A DNA stretch of 5,327 bases from a bacterium (GTDB taxonomy: Bacteria > UBP15 > UBA6099 > DSWB01). The stretch is taken from the NCBI GenBank assembly GCA_020061125.1, contig JAGUYV010000173.1, positions 1 through 5,327 of the forward strand. The letters are read 5' to 3'. The first letter of the stretch is position 1. The number at the start of each line of letters is the position of its first letter. The position numbers and the translations under genes were made by a program. This document shows, piece by piece, positions 1,948 through 4,654 of this stretch. The notes under the pieces were generated by a model. It did not search any database and had not been told where the DNA came from. It saw nothing but the letters and a program-made list of their open reading frames with translations.

Positions 1948-3453
1948 ATGTTCAGCATGCACACCAATGTTTCGGCAATGCAGAACAAGGAAGATTTGAG
2001 GGGCATTTATTTCAATATCGGGCAGGCCAGTGAGCGCATCAGTTCCGGGAAGCGGATCAACTCGGGCGCGGACGACCCTTCGGGTCTGGGCATCACCAAA
2101 GGCATGACAGCCGTTGCCCGCGGTTTTCAGGTGAACATTCAAAACGCGCAGGATGTGCTGCATTTCGTGCGTCTGGGCGATGAGGGCATGAATGAAATTT
2201 CCGACATGCTGAACAGGATGAAAGAACTGGCCGTTCGCGCCGCCAATGAAGCCGTGCTGACTTCCTCGGACCGGACAAAACTGGATAATGAATTTCAAAG
2301 TTTATATTCAGAGATCACCCGAACAGCCAAAACCACGAAACTGCGGGGCGAAGGCGAAACATCCTTGACGCCGATAAGCTGGCAGGGTCCGGGCATCGCC
2401 GACATCATGTATGTATTCGACTACAGCGGCAGCATGGGTCCTGCCGCTGCGGCTGTTCGCGCCCAGCTTTCCGGGTTCATCAGCTCACTGGAATCCAATG
2501 GCGTGGACTGGAACATCGGCCTTGTGGAGTATTCCGATGTCAACACGGGCCAGGCAGTAATTCATCACGACCTGACGGGCAATCAGGCCACGGCGCAGGC
2601 TTATCTTGACGGTATCGTGGTTGCGGGCGGCGGAGACCTGCCTGAATCCGGACTCGAAGGCCTGATGTCCGCGCTCAACAACACTTCGTTCAGATACGCG
2701 GCCGGAACAACAAATTATTTCAGACACATCATTATGATCACCGATGTGCCGCGCATATTGGGACCATGGACTTTTGATGTTTTCCATGACGACGCTGGCG
2801 GCGGGTATGCCGGCACCGGGCTTTCGGCATTCGACACGGTGACCGTGGCCAACTCCCTTGCCGCCGCGGGGATTCAGACACACATCGCTGGTGATGTGAA
2901 TCAACCCCAGAGCCAGCTTGTCACCACAACCACAGGCGGCCTGCTCGGCGCCATCGGCACTCTGAACACCACGCTTGACAACATCATGAACGCCATCACC
3001 TCAACCGACGCCGTGGCCTCCGAGGAATTCCGCACATTCAATATCCAGGTCAACCCTTTCAGCTACGGCAATTTCGAATTCACATTCGAGGACTGCCGCA
3101 CCATCGGCTTGAACATGACCGCCCAGAGCCTGACCTCGACCGCGGGCGCGCATGCGGCCATTGACGAAATTTCCGAAGTCATTGACCAGCTCGGCATGTA
3201 CCAGGCCAAATACGGTGAACTGGACCAAAAACTCGAACACATCATAGACGAACTGGAAATGCAATATATGAATCTGCAATCCGCGCGCTCGAAAATCGAG
3301 GACGCCGACATCGCCGCAGAAGCCACGGCGCTCACCAAGAACCAGATAATCGAACGGTCCACCCTGGCGGCGGGAATGTACGCCAACAATTCCCAGTCCA
3401 TTGTGCTGAATCTGTTGTCGGAAAACGGCATCGGCACACAGGGCGCTTTATAA
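1948..3453 (+). CDS. Flagellin with an inserted von Willebrand factor A (VWA) domain
   Basis: This 501-residue protein is a filament subunit, exported through the flagellar type III system and polymerised outside the cell. Residues 1-135 are a flagellin N-terminal D0/D1 region, with the hallmark ISSGKRINSGADDPSGLGI (31-49) and NRMKELAVRAAN (89-100). Residues about 358-501 are the C-terminal D1/D0 region, with SARSKIEDADIAAEAT (445-460) and a final helix up to VLNLL (486-490). Between them, about 148-352, is a VWA fold in place of the usual variable D2/D3 domains. It has DYSGS (Asp158, Ser160, Ser162), GGGDLPE (227-233, Glu233) and ITD (Asp266), the residues of a MIDAS metal site. The frame is uninterrupted, so both functions should be present in one chain. 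No signal peptide is expected or seen. The C-terminus runs 11 residues beyond the usual LL end. The gene stands alone between a sigma-54 promoter and a terminator. The adhesive role of the VWA domain is inference; the flagellin and VWA calls are firm. I give no fliC symbol because the domain layout is atypical. Confidence 0.95.
   Translation: MFSMHTNVSAMQNKEDLRGIYFNIGQASERISSGKRINSGADDPSGLGITKGMTAVARGFQVNIQNAQDVLHFVRLGDEGMNEISDMLNRMKELAVRAANEAVLTSSDRTKLDNEFQSLYSEITRTAKTTKLRGEGETSLTPISWQGPGIADIMYVFDYSGSMGPAAAAVRAQLSGFISSLESNGVDWNIGLVEYSDVNTGQAVIHHDLTGNQATAQAYLDGIVVAGGGDLPESGLEGLMSALNNTSFRYAAGTTNYFRHIIMITDVPRILGPWTFDVFHDDAGGGYAGTGLSAFDTVTVANSLAAAGIQTHIAGDVNQPQSQLVTTTTGGLLGAIGTLNTTLDNIMNAITSTDAVASEEFRTFNIQVNPFSYGNFEFTFEDCRTIGLNMTAQSLTSTAGAHAAIDEISEVIDQLGMYQAKYGELDQKLEHIIDELEMQYMNLQSARSKIEDADIAAEATALTKNQIIERSTLAAGMYANNSQSIVLNLLSENGIGTQGAL
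2389..3003 (+). other. VWA domain region within the flagellin (MIDAS metal site)
   Basis: This segment codes for about residues 148-352. The order fits a Rossmann-like VWA fold: a first strand IADIMYVFDYSGSMG with the DxSxS loop, a helix PAAAAVRAQLSGFISSL, the strand WNIGLVEYSD, the loop GGGDLPES leading into helix GLEGLMSALNN, the strand HIIMITDVPR, then helix FDTVTVANSLAAAG and the strand IQTHIAGDV. The GGGDLPE loop looks like the D-x-P-E loop of integrin beta I-like domains, where the Glu helps bind the MIDAS metal. Edges are approximate (within about 10 residues). Confidence 0.85.
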
Positions 3454-3497: not shown

Positions 3498-3535
3498 TCA
3501 AGCATCCCCCGCACTTCCCATTTCCCGTGAACCCG

Positions 3536-3565
3536 CACCGGCGCAAAGCCGGTGTTTGTTTTTTT
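3536..3565 (+). terminator. Rho-independent terminator of the flagellin gene
   Basis: CACCGGC (3536-3542) and GCCGGTG (3548-3554) form a perfect seven-pair G+C-rich stem around a GCAAA loop, followed at once by TTTGTTTTTTT (3555-3565). Lying 83 bases after the flagellin stop, it ends that transcript and separates it from the HEAT-STAS gene. Confidence 0.9.
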
Positions 3566-3601: not shown

Positions 3602-3656
3602 GTAGAAACGAAGTTATCGGACATGGGATAATATATGAAACCCGGACAGGACACGC

Positions 3657-3661
3657 AGGAG
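3657..3661 (+). promoter_or_regulatory. Ribosome binding site that decides the HEAT-STAS start
   Basis: AGGAG lies six bases before the ATG at 3668. The in-frame ATG at 3635, eleven codons earlier, has no comparable site. I therefore prefer 3668. Confidence 0.7.
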
Positions 3662-3667
3662 CGCGGC

Positions 3668-4654
3668 ATGGCGGATCGACTTGAAGAACTGGTGGAAAAA
3701 CTTCGGGATTCAAGCAAGGAAGTTGTCAAGGCCAGCATTGTGGAAGCCATCGGCCAGATCGGGGATCCGCGCGCGGTCAAGCCGCTGATCGAGGCGCTGA
3801 ACGACGCCGAGATGCTGGTGCGCTGGAACGCCATCAAGGGCCTGGCGCGGTTCGGCGAGGACGCGGTGGCTCCCCTGTTGCGCGCCCTGGACACGGCCGA
3901 CCGGTTCAAGCGCCGCAATGTGGTCCAGGCCCTGGGCGAACTGGGCGGCGACGAATCCGTGGACCGGCTCATCCGCATGCTCATGTTCGACGAATCCGAT
4001 CAGATGGTGCTCGTGGAAGTGATCCGCGCTCTGGACCGCATCCGGGATGCCCGCAGCCTGGACCCGCTCATCACGGTGCTGAAAATGGACAACTGGGAGA
4101 TGCGCTGGCGCGCGATCCACGCCCTCGAACATCTCGGCGACCCGGCCGCCATCGAGCCTCTTCTCGAAGTCATGAACGACGGGGACAAGGATATCCAGTG
4201 GGCCGCGTACATGGCCATCGAGGCCATCAAATCCGCCCAGGACCGTGCGGCCGCGCCCCCGGCGGCCCTGTCCGAAACCCCGGATCCGGTCCCCGCGCCG
4301 CGCCCGTCACGCTCCGATTTCAAGCAACAGGCCAGAAACCTCAAAGCCGAACTCAATCTGTCCGCGGAACCAAAGGCCGACCGCGTGATCATCCGCGTGG
4401 CCGGTGACCTGTTCTCCTCCAACATAGACATGTTCACCGGTTTCGTGGACGGCATCATTGCCGTGAACAGGCTGGGCATCGAGCTGGACATGAGCCAGTG
4501 CGCGTTTCTGGACTCCTTTGCCTTGAGCCGCCTCAACATCCTGCGCAAGAAACTGGCGTCCAGAAACAGAAAATTCTCGCTCTCGGGGCTGAAACCCAAT
4601 GTCAAGGCCGTGTTCACGGCTACGAAGCTGGATCAGCTATTCGAGATCCGCTGA
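3668..4654 (+). CDS. HEAT-repeat protein with C-terminal STAS domain
   Basis: The protein has 328 residues from the preferred ATG at 3668; an in-frame ATG at 3635 would add 11. Residues about 1-190 are five to six PBS-lyase-type HEAT repeats, seen as recurring units such as IGDPRAVKPLIEAL (31-44), LGGDESVDRLIRML (92-105) and LGDPAAIEPLLEVM (156-169), each with a following A-I/L-x-A-L helix. An Ala/Pro-rich linker (about 193-213) leads to a STAS domain (about 236-328), with the strand RVIIRVAGDL, the motif LDMSQCAFLDSFAL and the ending KLDQLFEI. In SpoIIAA/RsbV-type STAS proteins the Ser of the DS motif is phosphorylated by a partner kinase; here it is Ser283 after Asp282. HEAT repeats bind proteins, so the likely role is a cytoplasmic scaffold or switch in a partner-switching pathway. 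No signal peptide or membrane span is seen. No kinase or phosphatase partner is in the window. The next gene converges, with 21 bases between stop codons. The domain call is firm; the pathway is unknown. Confidence 0.93.
   Translation: MADRLEELVEKLRDSSKEVVKASIVEAIGQIGDPRAVKPLIEALNDAEMLVRWNAIKGLARFGEDAVAPLLRALDTADRFKRRNVVQALGELGGDESVDRLIRMLMFDESDQMVLVEVIRALDRIRDARSLDPLITVLKMDNWEMRWRAIHALEHLGDPAAIEPLLEVMNDGDKDIQWAAYMAIEAIKSAQDRAAAPPAALSETPDPVPAPRPSRSDFKQQARNLKAELNLSAEPKADRVIIRVAGDLFSSNIDMFTGFVDGIIAVNRLGIELDMSQCAFLDSFALSRLNILRKKLASRNRKFSLSGLKPNVKAVFTATKLDQLFEIR

Follow-up and report, generated by a model that had tools for sequence, protein, structure and literature searches.

The stretch of bacterial DNA analysed here (5,327 nucleotides; hereafter the window) encodes a flagellin with a VWA domain at the D2/D3 position and both filament-core ends intact. 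We propose, with a probability of roughly 0.55, that this protein is a minor filament subunit that displays a metal-dependent binding VWA domain. The window is an entire 5.3 kb contig (C69) of a 4.1 Mb draft genome that is 79% complete and consists of 513 contigs. The gene is an ATG frame of 501 codons that runs without interruption, and its recognizable features, all on the forward strand, are as follows:

1878-1893, forward: weak sigma-54-like site TGGAACCGGCATTGCC, 54 nt upstream of the ATG (9/11 matches; P 0.02 by shuffling, in a test of 24 regions)
1932-1938, forward: Shine-Dalgarno-like AGGGGGA, 9 nt upstream of the ATG (sequence)
1948-3453, forward: VWA flagellin gene, 501 aa (open reading frame; Pfam)
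1957-2349, forward: Flagellin_N, the D0/D1 N-terminal helices, residues 4-134 (Pfam E 7e-26; phmmer against solved flagellins, E down to 5e-27)
2389-3003, forward: VWA domain, residues about 148-352 (Pfam VWA_4, VWA and VWA_2; AlphaFold2 model; fold search)
2419-2433, forward: DYSGS, putative MIDAS motif DxSxS, residues 158-162 (sequence; D158 and S162 invariant in 8/8 aligned VWA flagellins)
2626-2649, forward: GGGDLPES, residues 227-234, the usual loop of the MIDAS Thr, of the GGGDxPE subtype (sequence)
2740-2745, forward: TD, residues 265-266, putative final MIDAS Asp, following strand 4 (no variation among the aligned VWA flagellins)
3028-3099, forward: D1-like beta-hairpin leading back to the filament core, residues about 361-384 (low-confidence model; alignment)
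3160-3417, forward: Flagellin_C, the D1/D0 C-terminal helices, residues 405-490 (Pfam E 4e-12)
3535-3565, forward: hairpin plus T run resembling an intrinsic terminator, shortly after the gene (sequence)

Judged throughout against the curated Pfam cut-offs, the protein matches Flagellin_N (PF00669) with 91.4 bits versus a cut-off of 26.6 and Flagellin_C (PF00700) with 46.7 bits versus 23, and between them it contains matches above cut-off to VWA_4 (PF25106; residues 154-248, 35.1 bits, E 1e-8), VWA (PF00092; residues 152-323, 31.2 bits, E 3e-7) and VWA_2 (PF13519; residues 153-266, 27.8 bits). The E-values of the Flagellin_N, VWA and Flagellin_C matches rule out chance. Solved flagellins match both ends of the protein in phmmer searches, in keeping with the intact N- and C-terminal D0/D1 regions that the preliminary description had read from the single frame. 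The segment following the VWA domain forms a beta-hairpin (strands 362-367 and 375-380) in a low-confidence full-length model, and lines up with FQVGPD...TLGL in other flagellins.

The sequence surrounding the gene suggests that it constitutes a single transcription unit. Upstream, the sigma-54-like site is a weak lead only, and a search for a sigma-28-type promoter found none. The contig neighbors include no flagellar genes recognizable with Pfam; they comprise a membrane protein and another protein, both devoid of Pfam matches, and a protein combining HEAT repeats with a STAS domain, which lies downstream of the flagellin past the terminator-like hairpin (3635-4654, forward strand).

Fold and putative metal site of the inserted domain

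The preliminary description had placed a VWA domain at residues 148-352, and these boundaries hold approximately; Pfam, structure prediction and fold searches all identify the domain. An AlphaFold2 model of residues 146-356, computed from a 7-row alignment (mean pLDDT 74, pTM 0.77), contains the alternation of strands and helices in the order typical of VWA domains, and superimposes on the solved VWA domains of TFIIH, integrin I and beta-I-like domains and collagen VI with Z-scores of 17-21 over 168-191 residues. Foldseek searches with this model yielded matches with E of about 1e-8, the pilus adhesin SpaC being among the top ones. The full-length model, computed from an alignment of only 5 sequences, is poor (pLDDT 45). 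The phmmer matches of the VWA segment in the PDB were to propeller repeats only and were discarded as spurious, and scans of viral contigs for additional alignment rows recovered two VWA loci and no flagellins.

Alignment of eight VWA flagellins reveals invariance of D158, S162, T265 and D266 in all eight sequences, with position 160 being either serine or threonine. Leaving aside a homologue from genome G061 that has lost DxSxS, VWA flagellins have about 12 invariant columns out of about 290, and those of the metal site are among them. In the window protein, the loop that follows helix 2, where the MIDAS threonine usually lies, reads GGGDLPES, and metal binding is not assured because the canonical threonine position is thus taken by GGGD. 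Non-flagellin proteins of other phyla have VWA domains that share the GGGDxPE form. The integrin-like VWA domain of the window flagellin probably binds metal, through a putative MIDAS-like site.

VWA flagellins across genomes and the provenance of the insert

The source genome codes for four VWA flagellins, on the window contig and on contigs C189, C433 and C287. The C189 protein (a 540-aa frame) aligns with the window protein over its full length with 35% identity, that of C287 shows 29% identity over most of the length, and that of C433 has the same layout. Relatives within the order also possess such genes, namely two in G001, one in G006 and a fragment in G005, and a further one is present in G035, a genome from another small phylum, whose neighbor G061 has an insert of the same kind that has lost the DxSxS motif. 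Beyond these, a sample of 386 genomes contained no further true VWA flagellin, a count that represents a lower bound since three candidates were scored per genome; the first scan of contigs, with the window protein as the single query, gave no match. Two candidates were rejected: the G262 protein, which exceeded the profile threshold, belongs to the ordinary flagellins and bears outer domains of other kinds, and L114 is a non-flagellin VWA protein. Two of the VWA-flagellin lineages are common to different families of the order, and therefore appear to have been kept for a long time. In G035 a VWA domain was also observed inside a giant surface protein whose open frame is given as 22,286 aa (L136; G035:C2:82887-83219).

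A draft in 513 contigs, of which the window is one whole 5.3 kb piece, might raise the suspicion that assembly had joined a flagellin gene to a VWA gene, and the junctions near 2390 and 3010 had been singled out beforehand as places where such an artefact might lie. Both junctions are spanned by full-length homologues that lie on other contigs and in genomes from separate assemblies, and the window gene is a single open frame with an unbroken coding signal; the probability of an assembly chimera is negligible, and it is in practice ruled out.

Two derivatives of VWA flagellins, in G002 (L103:3685-5109, reverse strand, 475 aa) and G006 (L104:632-2125, forward strand, 498 aa), are matched by neither Flagellin_N nor Flagellin_C of Pfam. 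They are under purifying selection (dN 0.05, dS 0.25), and are perhaps secreted or cap-like. The existence of forms that have lost recognizable flagellin ends and are nevertheless constrained would be consistent with the window gene itself encoding a secreted, flagellin-derived VWA protein rather than a filament subunit. We regard this as very unlikely, given that the window gene retains both D0/D1 ends, with scores well over the flagellin-model cut-offs.

The VWA domain of the window protein is closer to certain non-flagellin VWA domains (38% identity over 118 aa, E 4e-19, to one from G341; 33% over 119 aa to L114) than to those of other flagellins, with which it shares 24-32% identity and weaker E-values. 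In a VWA tree, whose comparison set was picked by similarity to the window VWA and is accordingly biased, the VWAs of the seven other flagellins, that of the other phylum among them, group in a single clade (support 100/99) with the window VWA outside it, and all flagellin VWAs are united in 1% of the bootstrap trees. A single origin of all eight is not rejected (AU p 0.35). For the flagellin ends of the window protein, the nearest sequence by tree path is that of C189, with weak support. These relationships suggest that the window VWA is likely, though not proven, to represent a second capture or a domain replacement.

Flagellin repertoire and proposed role on the filament

The source genome contains about 21 flagellin-type genes, a count that includes hook-associated relatives such as a FlgL-like frame on C51. 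Several of these are ordinary short flagellins of about 284-316 aa. Other members of the repertoire bear unrelated outer domains. Three flagellins have matches to WD40-like/PD40 beta-propellers in the variable region: L054:8774-10525 (forward strand, C487), L053:2138-3841 (reverse strand, C422) and L057:2823-5849 (reverse strand, C423), the last being a 1009-aa protein with an additional long Asp-rich repeat region of the DxDxDG type. A flagellinolysin-like flagellin on C328 (L051:152-1810, reverse strand) has an HEMTH motif and matches NF033876 with E 9e-23 (81 bits versus a cut-off of 205), and a 926-aa flagellin on C299 (L056:3717-6494, forward strand) has an insert of roughly 690 residues devoid of a clear Pfam match. 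The genome has a gene for the filament cap protein, FliD; a search for FlhA, which 5/6 relatives have, found none in this draft of 79% completeness. A comparable abundance of flagellins was observed in G014, from another phylum, where a 2.5 Mb genome has 19 Flagellin_N matches, many in frames of 600-665 aa, pointing to a flagellin-rich lineage.

In the mechanism that we favor, the gene encodes a genuine flagellin whose D2/D3 is replaced by the VWA domain, and, since the D0/D1 ends are intact, the protein probably passes through the flagellar secretion channel and is assembled into the filament. The preliminary description pictured the filament as a long array of such domains, with the flagellum acting as an adhesin or surface sensor; given the roughly 21 flagellin-type genes of the genome, which include several ordinary short flagellins, the window protein is more likely to be a minor or patchy component next to these. 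With its VWA domain pointing outwards, it could hold a ligand at a divalent-metal (MIDAS-like) site, and the flagellum would thereby be able to adhere, in a metal-dependent manner, to another cell, a particle, a polymer or a surface. Evidence in favor of such a binding subunit comes from the presence of Flagellin_N, VWA and Flagellin_C in one frame and the recurrence of this architecture in other genes and in relatives; against it stand the G061 homologue without DxSxS, the lack of a sigma-28-type promoter, and the missing FlhA in the incomplete draft.

VWA domains commonly mediate protein-protein contacts, and the insert might accordingly be a structural outer domain, with VWA-VWA contacts between adjacent subunits making the filament stiffer or bundled and adjusting motility where the surroundings are viscous or porous, no external ligand being involved. 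The retention of the insert in G061 after loss of the DxSxS motif would be in line with this. Outer flagellin domains have indeed been linked to filament mechanics, in that their dimerization in other flagellins modulates motility (PMC8931119). A plain spacer, however, would not need the metal-site residues that are among the 12 invariant columns, and the unrelated protease-like and beta-propeller outer domains in the same genome better fit the display of varied functions; hence, we consider the structural explanation unlikely.

The same assortment of unrelated outer domains in one genome, along with the separate position of the window VWA that domain replacement would give, could instead reflect diversification of the filament surface as an escape from flagellum-binding phages or predators, with any binding being incidental. 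We view this as quite unlikely: the metal motif is conserved, and the genes lie on separate contigs or amidst unrelated neighbors, with no switching cassette seen in these short contigs. A broader interpretation, which we consider possible but doubtful, is that the flagella of this little-known candidate phylum serve as organelles of modular display, with several flagellins each presenting a different functional outer domain (four VWA adhesion modules, beta-propellers, a protease), and that VWA domains were captured more than once, the window gene having acquired its own separately.

Comparison with known systems

The preliminary description knew of no described class of VWA flagellins; this has to be revised, as Eckhard et al. 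2017 rank vWFA eighth by frequency among the domains in the hypervariable regions of flagellins, with 21 sequences (their Table 1; PMC5595980). As in the window protein, the vWFA domain of these lies between the flagellin N and C domains. They are represented there by a bare table count, and no sequences, organisms, phylogeny or function were found for them in the main text (PMC5595980); our literature search for a study of the tabulated proteins found none. The window gene is thus of a kind tabulated in 2017 for which no study was found. Additions to that record are the occurrence of four such genes in a single genome, the VWA subtype, which is distinct, and the G002 and G006 derivatives, which are conserved.

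The closest functional precedent is flagellinolysin (FlaMP, NCBIfam NF033876), in which a folded, functional domain at the same insertion place works on the assembled filament (PMC5595980). Its insert is a gluzincin protease with an HExxH motif, whereas the window protein lacks HExxH and has no His-Glu pair in its entire 501-aa translation. Filament assembly and metal-dependent adhesion would follow from the architecture of the window protein together with this precedent. VWA is also a second domain class, after the protease, with which one could probe what a filament can carry, and the presence of several differently decorated flagellins in one genome makes mixed, zoned or switched filaments a testable proposition.

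A secreted vWFA protein required for surface motility, CmoA of Paenibacillus sp. NAIST15-1 (PMC5072692), offers a more distant parallel, and its authors suggest a tie to the flagellar regulon. CmoA is a 1,064-aa protein with IPT/TIG domains that is secreted separately and, unlike what we propose for the window protein, does not serve as a filament subunit. The display of a VWA domain on a surface filament, as proposed here, is seen in SpaC of Lactobacillus rhamnosus (PDB: 6m3y), which is a pilus adhesin of very different overall build and not a flagellin. The usual view of flagellar filaments is that of propellers whose coat varies; should VWA flagellins bind ligands from the filament surface in a metal-dependent manner, they would be the flagellar counterparts of the VWA pilus adhesins, and could account for attachment in organisms without pili of that type.
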